Origin: Archaeoglobus profundus DSM 5631
Lineage (GTDB): Archaea; Halobacteriota; Archaeoglobi; Archaeoglobales; Archaeoglobaceae
Reading direction: 5' to 3'
DNA: 64,000 nucleotides
Assembly: GCF_000025285.1 (NCBI RefSeq)
Contig: NC_013741.1
Span: 620,001-684,000 of the forward strand
Shown here: piece by piece, positions 48,608 to 54,068 of the stretch
How positions within the stretch are numbered: position 1 is the first letter of the stretch
Layout: the number at the start of each line of letters is the position of its first letter
The notes under the pieces: generated by a model
What the model was told of the DNA's origin: nothing
The model's input: only the letters and a program-made list of their open reading frames with translations
Database searches by the model: none
Made by a program: the position numbers and the translations under genes

Positions 48608-48859
48608 ATGAGGGATAAACGTTCGCGCCATGAGATTATCGTAGAAATCTTGGAAGTTGCAGTTGGTGGAGCAAATGTGACGAAAATTGTCTATAGCGCA
48701 AATATAAACTTTAAGATGGCGCAAGATTACCTATCCTACTTGATAAAGTACGGGTTTATCGAAATTTTGGCGAAAAATGGTAAAAAAGTTTACAGAACAA
48801 CTGATAAGGGTAAAACTTTCATAAGAAAATACAAGGAACTCGAAGATCTGCACTATTAA
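48608..48859 (+). CDS. Winged-helix DNA-binding protein (HTH_45-like)
   Basis: An 83-residue archaeal regulator: MRDKRSRHEIIVEILEVAV, then NVTKIVYSANINFKMAQDYLSYLIKYGFIE (residues ~20-50) and the wing KVYRTTDKGKTFIRKYKEL. This order is that of the PF14947/HTH_45 group. I choose ATG 48608 because the residues encoded upstream are not like the family. It may regulate its own promoter and the adjacent surface-protein cluster. Confidence 0.85.
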   Translation: MRDKRSRHEIIVEILEVAVGGANVTKIVYSANINFKMAQDYLSYLIKYGFIEILAKNGKKVYRTTDKGKTFIRKYKELEDLHY

Positions 48860-48938
48860 ATGTAAGGTTGTTCGAGTAGTTCGACTAATTAATTAAGATT
48901 CACACATTTTAAATATTTCTTAGCTTAAGAACTGACTC

Positions 48939-49133
48939 ATGAAAAAGCTAACTCCTGACGATATTTTACTTGAATGTTTAAACGGATTCAAAGTGTGTAA
49001 AGAACGGAGAGACCGCAAGATCGTAATAAAAATCATAAATTTTCTAATTGAATTTGGCTTTGTAAAAGAGAATGCAGGCGAGTTTATAACTACCGTAAGT
49101 GGTCGTGAGCTACTGAACCTACCTACTGATTAA
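48939..49133 (+). CDS. Small winged-helix-like protein
   Basis: A 64-residue protein: MKKLTPDDILLECLNGFKVCKERRD, then IVIKIINFLIEFGFVKENAG and TTVSGRELLNLPTD. The second helix pair and the G-F-V wing resemble a truncated winged helix of the same type as the preceding gene. It has its own TATA (TTTTAAATA, 48908-48916) close to the start codon, suggesting a leaderless mRNA. It lies directly before the secreted-protein cluster and may help control it. Confidence 0.6.
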   Translation: MKKLTPDDILLECLNGFKVCKERRDRKIVIKIINFLIEFGFVKENAGEFITTVSGRELLNLPTD

Positions 49134-49195
49134 AGCTAATGACCGTGAAACCTTAGGGAATTTACTGATTGATATTTCTAATTTTATATTCATAA

Positions 49196-49209
49196 TTTAT
49201 TAATATTTA
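49196..49209 (+). promoter_or_regulatory. TATA region of the secreted-protein operon
   Basis: TTTATTAATATTTA, about 25 nt upstream of the hairpin that I take as the 5' end of the operon mRNA. Confidence 0.45.
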
Positions 49210-49227
49210 GTGCAAATAGATACAATT

Positions 49228-49243
49228 GTCGGCAAGAGCCGAC
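49228..49243 (+). promoter_or_regulatory. 5'-leader hairpin ahead of the operon's ribosome-binding site
   Basis: GTCGGC-AAGA-GCCGAC is a perfect 6-bp stem with a four-base loop, 3 nt before the Shine-Dalgarno GAGGTGGT (49247-49254). By promoter spacing it would lie at or near the very 5' end of the transcript. It could protect the mRNA or influence translation of the first secreted protein. Confidence 0.5.
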
Positions 49244-49258
49244 TATGAGGTGGTAGAA

Positions 49259-49849
49259 TTGAAAAAGTTGCCGTTAGGCATATTAGGGGCGATGGTAGCC
49301 TTGAGCCTAATAATAGGCGCAAGTGCTACCTTTAGTGACTACAACGCAAGCAGAAGCGTGCACTGGAACATAACAACAGACGACACCGAACTGATAGACC
49401 TATGCCCAATACAACCCTACGCATACATAGACACAGCTACGGGAGAACTCGTTCTCGACTTCTCACCGAACAACCCTAACTACCCAGGTTACGGTGATGG
49501 AATAAGCCCGGCATCTGAGTATAACTTCGACGAGGTATTCAATGTAAGTAACCATCTTTGGGAAGACACGGCGATAGTAGTCAGAATAACATCAAGTGAT
49601 ACACATGTCGAGTTCTACAGTGCAGACGGTGGAGTATACGCTGTAGCAGATGGAACTTTAGCAACCGCTTCAGACAGTGCAAGAGATGACGTCTGCTTTG
49701 TTCTCCAGCCGGGACAGAGTAAAAAGATTGGAGTTGACTTGAGTGCAGACGGTGACAGCCCCAGAGACGTTTGGAATGAGAAGATGACGATAAAGGCGTA
49801 CAGGCTTGGAACCGAGCCTGCGGAGCTTGTTGGAAAATGCGGTCAGTAA
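49259..49849 (+). CDS. Secreted DUF1102-like surface protein 1 (TasA/camelysin-like N-terminus)
   Basis: About 196 residues starting at TTG 49259, chosen for the GAGGTGGT ribosome site 4 nt upstream and the resulting signal peptide MKKLPLGILGAMVALSLIIG. A signal-peptidase site at ASA precedes TFSDYNASRSVHWNIT, the FSD-type mature N-terminus of SipW substrates. The conserved NPNYPGYGDG is at about residue 80, then FDEVFNVSNHLW. Sequons are numerous. The fold is expected to be a beta sandwich. It heads a run of co-directional genes with two paralogues and a dedicated signal peptidase; I infer a subunit of a surface fibre or matrix. Confidence 0.8.
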   Translation: MKKLPLGILGAMVALSLIIGASATFSDYNASRSVHWNITTDDTELIDLCPIQPYAYIDTATGELVLDFSPNNPNYPGYGDGISPASEYNFDEVFNVSNHLWEDTAIVVRITSSDTHVEFYSADGGVYAVADGTLATASDSARDDVCFVLQPGQSKKIGVDLSADGDSPRDVWNEKMTIKAYRLGTEPAELVGKCGQ

Positions 49850-49862
49850 GGTGGTGATGTAA

Positions 49863-50408
49863 ATGAAAAAGTTGGCGGGTATATTGCTTCTGATAGTCGG
49901 TCTGTCTCTGGCAGTTGGTGTCGGAGCAAATTTCAGGTACTATCAGGCAGATAGAACAATAACAGTGAATATAACGTCAGACGATAACGAGCTAATCGAT
50001 CTAGATCCCGTACAGCCCTACGCTTATCTAAATAACGGTAAGCTTACGATTGAAATCAGTCCGAATAATCCGAACTATCCAGGATATGGAGACGGTATGA
50101 GCCACAATACGACGTATGTCTTTGAAGAGATGTTTAACGTAAGTAACGACCTTTGGGAGAACGAGAATCAGAACTTCCCGATATGTGTACAGATATCTGT
50201 TCCACAGAACAGCAGTGTTAAAGTATTTGCAGGAAACTACAATGATGACGGAACAGCTACAATTGCAAATCCGGGAACCCAGATTCAGTTTACCGTTGAA
50301 CATGGACAGCCAGTTTCAGTTGGATTCATATTCGACAACACCTGCGAAGAATTAGGCACACATTCGGTAAACATGGACATTCAGGCTTGGGCGGGTGCCT
50401 GTGAGTAA
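49863..50408 (+). CDS. Secreted DUF1102-like surface protein 2
   Basis: A 181-residue paralogue of the previous gene, starting ATG 49863 behind GGTGGTGATG. Signal peptide MKKLAGILLLIVGLSLAVGVGA is followed by NFRYYQADRTITVNITSDDNELIDLDP, nearly the same layout as protein 1 (ELIDL, QPYAY). The NPNYPGYGDG motif and FNVSNDLWEN recur. The C-terminus is CEELGTHSVNMDIQAWAGACE. It has several sequons and two late Cys. Close similarity in adjacent genes indicates tandem duplication. Role as in protein 1; major versus minor subunit cannot be told. Confidence 0.8.
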   Translation: MKKLAGILLLIVGLSLAVGVGANFRYYQADRTITVNITSDDNELIDLDPVQPYAYLNNGKLTIEISPNNPNYPGYGDGMSHNTTYVFEEMFNVSNDLWENENQNFPICVQISVPQNSSVKVFAGNYNDDGTATIANPGTQIQFTVEHGQPVSVGFIFDNTCEELGTHSVNMDIQAWAGACE

Positions 50409-50454
50409 GCAGGCATCCAACCTTAATTTTTACTAGTTTTTCTGGTGATTGGCA

Positions 50455-50934
50455 GTGGAGAGAGCTACGACATTAGTACTTGTGGTTCTTTCGATCTTTG
50501 CAATAGGTTTCAACGCACCAGCTTTTTCGACTCTTGTTGAGGACATCGTAAACGGTGTTACCCTGACATCCGACTCTGTCTATGCAACTACTTCAAATGG
50601 AAACCTTACAATAGATATAAGTGTTAACAACCCTAACTATCCCGGCTACGGCGACGGATTAAGTTCTGGATCGGTTTATCGCTTTGATGATGTGATAGTA
50701 TTGGAGAACAATGTTTCAAGAACGGGAGAAAGTGTGGTGTGTGTTAATATACAGTCCAACGATGACAGCCTGAAGTTCTACACGGATAGCATTGCTCCAT
50801 CGGAGTCTATCAATTTGACATTAGGAGAAAACGAAAGTAAATCCGTCGGAATTGAAATCAATTCTTCTACTTCCGGCTTGGGATTGGTGAAAGGTAGCTA
50901 CACTATTTACGTTTACAGCGGTGAGTGTCAATGA
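50455..50934 (+). CDS. Secreted DUF1102-like surface protein 3 (divergent)
   Basis: About 159 residues from GTG 50455, which has GGTGAT 5 nt upstream. The signal peptide (ATTLVLVVLSIFAIGFNAPAFS) is followed by a shorter N-terminal segment lacking the FSDY/FRYY part. The shared motif NNPNYPGYGDG is fully kept, then YRFDDVIVLENN and several sequons. It ends IYVYSGECQ, like the Cys-containing ends of its neighbours. It overlaps the signal peptidase gene by four bases (ATGA). The different N-terminus suggests a distinct position in the assembly, for example a cap or base. Confidence 0.75.
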   Translation: MERATTLVLVVLSIFAIGFNAPAFSTLVEDIVNGVTLTSDSVYATTSNGNLTIDISVNNPNYPGYGDGLSSGSVYRFDDVIVLENNVSRTGESVVCVNIQSNDDSLKFYTDSIAPSESINLTLGENESKSVGIEINSSTSGLGLVKGSYTIYVYSGECQ

Positions 50935-51959
50935 AGATTGGAGATGTGCTAACTCTGTTTGCAGTGGTATTTCTGCTTACATCCGTAGTGGGTTTCATCC
51001 TCGACAGACCCATTCTACTGTCGTATGTCACTTCCGACAGTATGACTCCTACGCTCAATAAAGGAGATATCTTTCTGATAAATCCACTTTCGAAAGGAAA
51101 GCCCGGAGATATAGCAGTATTCAAGATGAACGGTCACTGGACAGTTCATAGGATATATGCGGAAACATCAGATGGATTCATAACTAAAGGTGACAACAAT
51201 GTTGCTACTGATCAGCAGGGTGGTAGAAACGGCGTAGTTAAAAAGGAAGATGTAGTTGGAACAGTCATTACCGTCTTTGGTACACCTTTGAAGGTGCCCT
51301 ACGTCGGCAGTTACTTGCAGGACTTCTCAAAATCTACGAAGAATCTGTACATTGCCATACTGGTGATTGTACTTGGTTCGATACTCTTAACGAGTGGCAG
51401 GGAAGGTGCACGAAAGAGAAAGAAAAGAGTTCTCAAGCTCAAGTATAAGACTCTGTACACGATAATTTCGACAATAACAATGGCCGTATTTCTAATCTCG
51501 ATTGTTGCAACTTGGGGAACTATCGGTTTCAACTACGCATCGACACTCGCTGGTGGTCAAAAGGAGGGCTGGTATCTACCAAATACTGAGTTTGACAGAC
51601 CTCTTACCTTGAAAAGCAAGACTATCTATCCAATGCTGTATATTCTTTCTCCTAGGGGTGAGAGAATAACGATAGATAAATCCCAATGTATCCTAATGGG
51701 AAAGGAAAAAGAAAGTTTGATAGTTCACGTTAAAGTCCCATCAGACACAAAGATATACTATGAGCAGATTGACGTTTACTCCTATCCACTAATGCTTCCA
51801 CCTGCCACGATTAAGAGCATGTGGAATTTCAGCCCGTATCTACCACTGATGGCGTTTACATCCGAGATGGCTTTGCTACTGACTGTAGTGTACTTTGTTA
51901 CGGGATCGGGAGATGAGGATGTAATTAGGTTAAGGTTGAGAAAGAGGAGGTATCTATGA
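50931..51959 (+). CDS. SipW/Sec11-like signal peptidase I with extra C-terminal membrane region
   Basis: A 342-residue serine protease of family S26B. After a first TM segment (about 6-24), the catalytic Ser37 is in TSDSMTPTL, His73 in VHRIY (His instead of the bacterial Lys) and Asp88 in TKGDNN, the ER/archaeal/SipW triad. A second TM follows near 135-153. The last ~190 residues carry two further TM segments (about 172-195 and 305-327) around a beta-rich extracellular part, unusual for SPase I but known in archaeal SipW-like forms. Overlaps of 4 nt on both sides place it in the middle of the surface-protein operon. Confidence 0.9.
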   Translation: MKIGDVLTLFAVVFLLTSVVGFILDRPILLSYVTSDSMTPTLNKGDIFLINPLSKGKPGDIAVFKMNGHWTVHRIYAETSDGFITKGDNNVATDQQGGRNGVVKKEDVVGTVITVFGTPLKVPYVGSYLQDFSKSTKNLYIAILVIVLGSILLTSGREGARKRKKRVLKLKYKTLYTIISTITMAVFLISIVATWGTIGFNYASTLAGGQKEGWYLPNTEFDRPLTLKSKTIYPMLYILSPRGERITIDKSQCILMGKEKESLIVHVKVPSDTKIYYEQIDVYSYPLMLPPATIKSMWNFSPYLPLMAFTSEMALLLTVVYFVTGSGDEDVIRLRLRKRRYL

Positions 51960-52783
51960 GAAGGTTAATTTGCGGTTTGATCATCATCGTCAGCCTGACA
52001 ATGCTGTTAGGCTCAAGCGGGAATTTGAGGGAATTTTATGGAGGTAGAAATGTGATCGTAAACATATCTTGTAACAACAGCTCGTACGTTGCTTTCACTT
52101 GTCCAGAAATAACATTCCACTTACAAAACGGTGACAATACTGATGTTATTATGCTAACGAACAATATAGGGAAAGACGCCGACTTCTATCTATACTCCAC
52201 CAACAACATGCTAGTATTTTCAAATCCTATACACCTCGTAAATAGAGAGACGAAATGGATAAGTGCCACGTACAACGGTGGATACGGTGATCACATAATA
52301 CCGCTGAGAATACATGCAGAGTGGGACGGTGGTTCGGCAGATATCGATGCCTGTAACGTGCATGTAGTAAGCTATCCAGTTGAAATTAAGAAGGTGCTTT
52401 TGAGCGGAAGTTTGAATGTAAAAACACACACCTTGGAGTATTGGACATTCAGAATAACACTGAAGAATTACGGATGTGGAGATTACTTTACAGTTAAAGA
52501 CACAATTCCAGCGGAATTCAACGTTTCGAGTGTGAATCCTTCTAATGGTACGTATACAATATGTGAGCACAACTGTGGTAAGATGAGTTCGACAAAGTTG
52601 AATTGGTACGTTTACGTTGGAAGTGGAGAAGAGGAATACATGGATGTAACAGTCTACACTAGACTAAATCCGGCAGGAAAACAGGAATTTACGAGTCCCG
52701 GAGATTACAACTTAAACGATGGCGCTGAGATAGTTGGTTTGGGCATTAAGAGTGATAGCCTCGTTGTGCACGCCTACGACTGA
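51956..52783 (+). CDS. Secreted protein with DUF1102-like N-terminus and DUF11-like domain
   Basis: A 275-residue secreted protein. The signal peptide MRRLICGLIIIVSLTMLLGSS is followed by GNLREFYGGRNVIVNIS, which parallels NFRYYQADRTITVNIT of protein 2. This suggests the same processing and assembly type. The C-terminal half resembles a DUF11-type beta repeat (YFTVKDTIPAEFNVSSVNP, then MDVTVYTRLNP). There are many sequons and paired Cys. It overlaps the peptidase gene by ATGA. The larger size and added domain would suit an accessory, tip or adhesive component. Confidence 0.7.
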   Translation: MRRLICGLIIIVSLTMLLGSSGNLREFYGGRNVIVNISCNNSSYVAFTCPEITFHLQNGDNTDVIMLTNNIGKDADFYLYSTNNMLVFSNPIHLVNRETKWISATYNGGYGDHIIPLRIHAEWDGGSADIDACNVHVVSYPVEIKKVLLSGSLNVKTHTLEYWTFRITLKNYGCGDYFTVKDTIPAEFNVSSVNPSNGTYTICEHNCGKMSSTKLNWYVYVGSGEEEYMDVTVYTRLNPAGKQEFTSPGDYNLNDGAEIVGLGIKSDSLVVHAYD

Positions 52784-52791
52784 GGGAAAGA

Positions 52792-52799
52792 TATAAATA
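52792..52799 (+). promoter_or_regulatory. TATA box of the DUF5305-like gene
   Basis: TATAAATA preceded by GGGAAAGA (BRE-like) lies 46 nt before the ATG at 52845. The gene can thus be expressed apart from the upstream operon. Confidence 0.55.
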
Positions 52800-52844
52800 A
52801 GAAATGGGATAAGGGTATGAGGAACTACCTATCGTGGTGTTTAA

Positions 52845-53804
52845 ATGAAAAAACATGATTTGATTAAAAATGTCTTGGTTAAAAACAATGTCTTTATCCT
52901 ACTGCTTACATTTGTAGCGGTCTTCGGAATACTGACGGTGCTTGCATGGTCTACGCCTACAGAGGCAAAGTTCAGAGAAATCGTAAAAGTTTATGAGAGC
53001 AGGGGATCTCTTAAGCACGAAGCCCATCTTGTTAACAACACGCTTTACGGTGAAAGATTATCAAGTCGGTATTATCCCGAAAATCTTGTTGGAGACATAC
53101 ACTTAATTTACACCTTCTCATCCGATTATCAGGATGGAGAATACGAGTTTTCAGGAGATATCGTATACAAAACCAAGGTTGGAAATGACGAGTACGTCAT
53201 GTGGACTGACAGACTGTTCGACGAAAACGGAAAGTTGAACGGAGGAAGCTTCGAGGTTAAGAAGGTTTTGAATATATCGGAACTAAATGCGAGGATATCA
53301 TCTGTTTCTAGAGAATTAAGTATTAGGAGGCTCGATACGGACATTACGTTTACGTGTTTTGTAAAGCTTGGCAACAAGACGTTTAAACATGAAATTACCA
53401 TGATCAGAGATCCTACTGGTCTCATATACTTCAAGAATGTTGATAAAGATGAGAAGTCCCCTATATATGCTGACAGAACGGTTAAAAGCTCTTTGAACAT
53501 CCTTGGGCTTAAAATCGATACTGGACTTGCAAGAATGGCCTTTTCATTACCGTTGATAGTTCTAATCCCTCCCTTTGCTTATTCCTCCTACCTGAGGATA
53601 GTAAACAGACCTAAAAAGGTTAAAGGTCTAGATAAGTTTGTCGTAGATGGAGAAATAGCCAATATCAATGGATCGATCATACTTAAGAGCGAAGATGACC
53701 TAAAGAAAGTCTTTGAATTCGTTGATAAGCCAATAATAAAACATGGTAACGAATACATCATAGTCGATAACGGTATTGCGTACAGGTATCGTAAAGATCA
53801 GTAG
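52845..53804 (+). CDS. DUF5305-like membrane protein of the surface-protein cluster
   Basis: A 319-residue protein with an N-terminal TM (about residues 15-35), an extracellular beta-rich region of ~190 residues (DIHLIYTFSSDYQDGEYEFSG, YVMWTDRLFDENG) and a second TM near 232-250, ending in a short cytoplasmic domain. This topology and the FKVKVG-type strand pattern match DUF5305, which in archaea is regularly beside SipW-like signal peptidases and DUF1102 proteins. I infer an assembly or anchoring factor. It has its own TATA box. Confidence 0.72.
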   Translation: MKKHDLIKNVLVKNNVFILLLTFVAVFGILTVLAWSTPTEAKFREIVKVYESRGSLKHEAHLVNNTLYGERLSSRYYPENLVGDIHLIYTFSSDYQDGEYEFSGDIVYKTKVGNDEYVMWTDRLFDENGKLNGGSFEVKKVLNISELNARISSVSRELSIRRLDTDITFTCFVKLGNKTFKHEITMIRDPTGLIYFKNVDKDEKSPIYADRTVKSSLNILGLKIDTGLARMAFSLPLIVLIPPFAYSSYLRIVNRPKKVKGLDKFVVDGEIANINGSIILKSEDDLKKVFEFVDKPIIKHGNEYIIVDNGIAYRYRKDQ

Positions 53805-53815
53805 TCAAAATTGGC

Positions 53816-54068
53816 GGGGAGTGGCGGTAGTAAGCCCCCTTCTGTTTCTCGGCGGCATTGGTCTAAGCGGGCTAAGCCCTTGCACCGGCGGGGACGGCCG
53901 TTTCATCCCGCTTGGGTGACCTCAGCCTTTCGGCCTCCTTGCATTTCCCCAAGCGGGTATCGTTTCTGTGCCGTTGCCGTGCCTCTCGGCACACCCCCTT
54001 GCGGGGGTCCGCCTTTTAGCGGTGGGGGGACTTTCCTCCTTTCGGACAGCCGCCCACCGCCACTCCCC
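53816..54068 (-). ncRNA. rnpB: RNase P RNA (archaeal, probably type M)
   Basis: On the minus strand the RNA starts GGGGAGTGGCGG and ends with its complement CCGCCACTCCCC, the P1 helix. Conserved region I appears as GAGGAAAGTCC shortly after the start. ACAGAAACGATACC corresponds to conserved region IV, and GAAACAGAAGGGGGC to the 3' conserved part. The GC content far exceeds the surroundings. At about 253 nt it is short, in line with the reduced type M RNA known from Archaeoglobus and Methanococcus. It processes the 5' ends of tRNAs. Open frames across it on both strands are accidental. Confidence 0.93.

Follow-up and report, generated by a model that had tools for sequence, protein, structure and literature searches.

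We analysed a 64,000-nucleotide stretch of the Archaeoglobus profundus DSM 5631 chromosome (the window; positions 620001-684000 of 1,560,622 bases, in an assembly of 1,563,423 bases and two contigs), focusing on a run of eight genes on its + strand (48608-53804). The genes encode two winged-helix proteins (wH1, wH2), three DUF1102 proteins (D1, D2, D3; collectively D), a SipW-like S26B signal peptidase (S26), a secreted protein (P5) and a membrane protein (P6). The gene set, its conservation, an N-terminus common to D1, D2 and P5, and the predicted fold point to an operon that probably makes a donor-strand surface fimbria, exported by the general secretory (Sec) pathway, in hyperthermophiles. 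As judged by sequence comparison, the closest relatives are the haloarchaeal Tat-fimbriae (Taf), not Bacillus TasA. The initial annotation of this DNA had proposed a TasA-type fibre or matrix system; that reading is supported in part, and the Taf fimbriae, the real relatives, were not named in it.

Gene set, shared N-terminus and predicted folds

Several features described in the initial annotation are present as described: the ATGA overlaps at 50931 (end of D3, 50934, and start of S26) and 51956 (end of S26, 51959, and start of P5), and the motif NPNYPGYGDG, found in D1, D2 and D3. Its assignment of four secreted proteins to the DUF1102 family holds for D1, D2 and D3 and fails for P5, which gave only a weak DUF11 match. 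The DUF5305-like character of P6, weak by family profile (Table 1), is firm by profile-profile comparison with haloarchaeal DUF5305 (hhalign, 98.2%, E 3e-14).

A scan of 393 genomes of the phylum gave DUF1102 matches in 58. The strong matches fell in 24 members of Archaeoglobaceae and a single further genome of that order; the others were weak and lay in further families, taken to be haloarchaea. Among Thermococcaceae, 87 of 94 genomes carry DUF1102. A whole-genome search of 55 Archaeoglobaceae genomes gave strong S26 matches in exactly the 24 DUF1102 genomes, with one extra weak match (E 2e-11) that is probably a general signal peptidase. S26, P5 and P6 were present in all 26 Archaeoglobaceae-type clusters whose neighbourhoods were read. 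The co-occurrence that the initial annotation had put forward as a check is thus observed. Most of the 26 clusters have the order D1-D2-(D3)-S26-P5-P6 (in five, P6 stands immediately upstream in inverted orientation; in two, P5 lies ahead of S26), and the order is the same in almost all Thermococcus loci that extend far enough to judge. Chance does not account for the arrangement, since this order is kept across two archaeal families.

In a tree of 104 D proteins the sequences group by operon position (6 changes, compared with 45.9 in shuffles), with D1 and D2 as strongly separated paralogue groups that are nearly always represented once each per cluster. D1 and D2 are therefore old, separate subunits. 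The number of DUF1102 genes per cluster varies from 2 to 4 among relatives.

Two further observations concern the D proteins of relatives. Some Archaeoglobus sequences (L107, L109) nest within Thermococcus groups (L092-L100), which suggests operon transfer between the two orders. At L041:5959-7527 and L044:8695-10263, three normal DUF1102 genes are followed by a gene for a protein of 522 residues whose N-terminal part is a DUF1102 domain; it may be a fusion with a tip adhesin.

In D1, D2 and P5 the hydrophobic segment is followed by (G/S)AxF or GNF/GNL, an aromatic residue and a conserved arginine (ATFSDYNASR in D1, ANFRYYQADR in D2, GNLREFYGGR in P5); the aromatic residue close behind the probable cleavage site agrees with the earlier description of these substrates. 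AxFxxYxxxR, used as one regular expression, matched 44 of 47 D1, 42 of 42 D2 and 32 of 38 P5 homologues, 0 of 14 D3 homologues and 26 of 467 background open reading frames. Conservation runs past the probable cleavage site, through AxFxxYxxxRxVxVxIV. Taken alone, the 18-residue mature N-termini of D and P5 matched at 96.9% (hhalign, E 1.7e-10); their bodies scored 28.9%, below significance (control pairs, 0.1-16%). The body of D3 matched D at 99.9%, and the N-terminal extension is missing in D3. S/TRRxF was absent from 47 D1, 42 D2 and 38 P5 sequences (0 of 127 proteins), which argues for export by Sec, not by twin-arginine translocation (Tat).

The S26 residues Ser37, His73 and Asp88, pointed out previously, are invariant in 41 of 41 sequences. 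S26 scored 37.9 bits against the Bacillus SipW equivalog NF046067, short of the cut-off of 190, and carries a C-terminal extension of ~190 residues with four predicted transmembrane helices and a predicted extracellular domain. A general S26 peptidase is encoded separately in the genome (C1:351435), so the operon S26 looks dedicated, as the initial annotation had held for an endoplasmic reticulum (ER)/SipW-type enzyme. One relative (genome G034) has an S26 split into two overlapping frames in cluster L043 (G034:C1:1813714-1814698; matches to residues 5-185 and 155-339); the second cluster of that genome has an intact S26.

Mature D2 (from ANFRYYQADR) was modelled with AlphaFold2 together with 68 relatives. 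The model (predicted local distance difference test, pLDDT, 86.6; predicted template modelling score, pTM, 0.82) is a beta-sandwich with disordered residues 1-8 and a free N-terminus. Its best PDB match in Foldseek is 7ueg (E 5.6e-4, probability 1.00), the bundling pilin AbpA of Pyrobaculum calidifontis, followed by FimA structures; comparison with such a bundling pilin was part of the structural check proposed for the locus. TasA was not among the 50 PDB matches listed. The AlphaFold model of P5 (pLDDT 87.6) has two immunoglobulin (Ig)-like domains, with residues 1-16 disordered. Foldseek matched P5 to generic Ig-like proteins and adhesins only, so that no function is named by these matches.

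Relation to Taf fimbriae, TasA and other archaeal filaments

Haloarchaeal Tat-fimbriae (tafi), with TafA, TafC, TafE and TafF, are reportedly the subject of work by Galeva et al. in iScience in 2025 (28:111793; cited in PMC12687288). We compared the operon with the corresponding NCBIfam models (NF052520-NF052523). Matches of D proteins to the TafA, TafE and TafF models were weak (best 6.5e-6, to TafA, among 29 D proteins) and did not reach the equivalog cut-offs (D2, 18 bits against a cut-off of 190). The TafA cut-off was exceeded in four genomes only of the phylum scan, all outside Archaeoglobaceae.

Profile-profile comparison (hhalign) was applied to parts of the proteins. The signal peptide and donor segment of D matched TafE at 95.6%, and the donor segment alone at 88.6% (controls, 1.6-2.7%). 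The D body matched TafF at 96.2%, and D3 matched TafF-like proteins at 96.5% (E 9e-10). By these comparisons the N-terminal segment of D is homologous to that of TafE and TafA, and the D body and D3 to TafF. An N-terminal match without a body match, seen for D with P5 and for D with TafE, is the pattern expected of a common donor strand. Bacillus TapA likewise resembles the TasA donor strand (PMC9674648).

The surroundings of the subunit genes are alike in the two systems. Taf clusters contain TafA, TafC, TafE and TafF together with DUF5305 (E 2e-60) and DUF7344 (E 3e-28) genes, and their S26 shares the long C-terminal extension of the operon S26, with which it can be aligned from end to end (23-26% identity). 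TafE-like proteins have a solved homologue, the chain 9p0a, named 'Pilin' (E 4e-31). The systems differ in that the haloarchaeal proteins have twin-arginine signals whereas D1, D2 and P5 have Sec-type signals, in that TafC has a lectin-like domain whereas P5 has Ig domains, and in that most TafF-like proteins have a C-terminal transmembrane helix whereas D3 has none.

Homology to TasA itself, implied by the initial annotation, did not hold up. With hhalign, D and TasA scored 12%, within the 4-16% of control pairs, and we reject D as a TasA homologue by sequence. The TasA/camelysin profile PF12389 stayed below its cut-off, with a hit to D1 only (E 0.084, 13.1 bits against 22.5). The likeness to Bacillus tapA-sipW-tasA is one of organisation: a dedicated ER-type peptidase adjoins its substrates, an aromatic residue follows soon after cleavage, and a donor-strand sequence is common to several substrates (TapA and TasA; PMC9674648). 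The differences are that D has no detectable sequence homology to TasA and that the operon S26 carries a long additional portion, in the membrane and outside the cell.

AbpA, the best structural match of D2, uses a donor-strand mechanism and is similar to TasA, according to PMC9674648 and PMC9715654; its host belongs to another phylum. The Sulfolobus threads (Saci_0406) are likewise an archaeal donor-strand filament, with processing by signal peptidase I and a proposed cap protein (PMC9715654). They differ from the operon proteins in having no sequence match to them, and the passages of PMC9715654 consulted mention no dedicated peptidase.

Proposed assembly and alternatives

We infer cleavage, strand exchange, filament formation and the roles of D3, P5 and P6 as follows. 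D1, D2 and P5 would cross the membrane through Sec, and the dedicated SipW-like S26B would cleave them immediately on one or the other side of the A of AxFxxY. The N-terminal strand released in this way (AxFxxYxxxRxVxVxIV) would then complete the beta-sandwich of the next subunit, with D1 and D2 as the polymerising subunits of a thin fimbria. D3, without a donor strand, may end the chain as an acceptor only, as membrane-anchored TafF may in haloarchaea. P5, with a donor strand on Ig-like domains, would be the donor-only other end, serving as adhesin or initiator where TapA or TafC would stand. Anchoring or organising assembly may fall to P6 and to the extension of the peptidase. A bolder form of this model, offered tentatively and in our view unlikely, is a chaperone-free pilus with acceptor-only D3/TafF, donor-only P5/TafC and the extended S26 as a platform coupling cleavage to strand insertion.

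The common N-terminus could also be a mere recognition site for a special peptidase, with DUF1102 proteins being monomeric or sheet-like surface proteins (S-layer associated or secreted matrix) that share an export route and a recognition sequence; the generic Ig-like character of P5 would suit this. We consider it unlikely, since conservation does not stop at the probable cleavage site, donor-strand pilins are the best matches of the D2 model, and the haloarchaeal relatives are reported as fimbriae (PMC12687288). Alternatively, the proteins could form no long polymer, only a short anchored fibril or an adhesin complex whose composition is fixed, with D1, D2, D3 and P5 present once each. This would fit the well-separated single D1 and D2 paralogues, as in a tip fibrillum, but is quite improbable given the varying DUF1102 copy number and the description of Taf fimbriae as thin filaments, exported by Tat (as cited in PMC12687288).

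Some results weigh against a donor-strand fimbria. The D2 model compares with AbpA at a TM-score of only 0.36-0.39 with 10% identity, and scored higher (0.47-0.50) with 9bab, a solved filament-type entry named 'Hyper2 tube'. No direct sequence-profile link was obtained between D and TasA, nor between D and any solved pilin or other structure. The TafE body did not match the D body (1.4%), and the body link to Taf rests on TafF. Given the low TM-scores, the match of D2 to AbpA supports the kind of fold and is no proof.

The donor-strand fimbria reading suggests a likely function for DUF1102, listed as a family of unknown function, and for the unusual signal peptidase. With it, the range of donor-strand fimbriae would come to include Archaeoglobi and almost every Thermococcaceae genome; these fimbriae would be joined with the haloarchaeal Tat-fimbriae, as one machine that Sec serves in place of Tat. 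Archaeal donor-strand filaments are already known, as are the Taf fimbriae. No literature on DUF1102 turned up in a search; as far as the literature consulted shows, what is new is the tie of DUF1102 and of the extended peptidase to donor-strand fimbriae, the Sec-type version in hyperthermophiles (near-universal in Thermococcaceae) and the predicted pair of end subunits with complementary roles. Genetically tractable species exist among the Thermococcales, which puts the model within reach of simple deletion experiments.

Upstream genes, coordinates and neighbouring features

The initial annotation had also noted two winged-helix genes ahead of D1 as possible regulators. The assignment is clear for wH1 and weak for wH2 (Table 1). 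As regulators, the pair are not the conserved ones: wH1 homologues adjoin many clusters, though not all, and most relatives have a DUF7344-type gene at this position, upstream of D1 in Thermococcus and in many Archaeoglobus clusters. The window has no DUF7344 gene, and the two winged-helix genes occupy its place. Ahead of the DUF7344-type gene, Thermococcus loci have another short gene, conserved and winged-helix-like (VAFLTRFLNERG...RHYRL), for example at L077:881-1102 and L095:1134-1349.

Table 1. Genes of the operon and its upstream region, in window coordinates
Gene	Position	Strand	Assignment	Matches and marks
wH1	48608..48859	+	HTH_45/Sso10a-type winged-helix protein, possible regulator	PF14947 E 9e-24
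wH2	48939..49133	+	short winged-helix protein, weak	PF14947 E 5e-4, below cut-off
D1	49259..49849	+	DUF1102 pilin-like subunit	PF06510 E 3e-54; preferred start TTG 49259; signal peptide, then ATFSDYNASR (A at 49325)
D2	49863..50408	+	DUF1102 pilin-like subunit	PF06510 E 1e-66; ANFRYYQADR at 49926
D3	50455..50934	+	DUF1102 subunit without N-terminal donor-type segment	PF06510 E 5e-46; preferred start GTG 50455
S26	50931..51959	+	S26B SipW-like signal peptidase	archaeal signal peptidase model TIGR02228 E 5e-19; SipW model NF046067 E 1e-9, below cut-off
P5	51956..52783	+	secreted, two Ig-like domains	N-terminus as in D1/D2
P6	52845..53804	+	DUF5305-type membrane protein	PF17231 E 0.008; two transmembrane helices

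Scans for Sigma-70 promoters and terminators, which are unsuited to archaea, gave none above shuffles. Directly 3' of the operon, on the - strand, lies an ordinary archaeal RNase P RNA (53819-54065; RF00373, 194.8 bits, E 3e-57).

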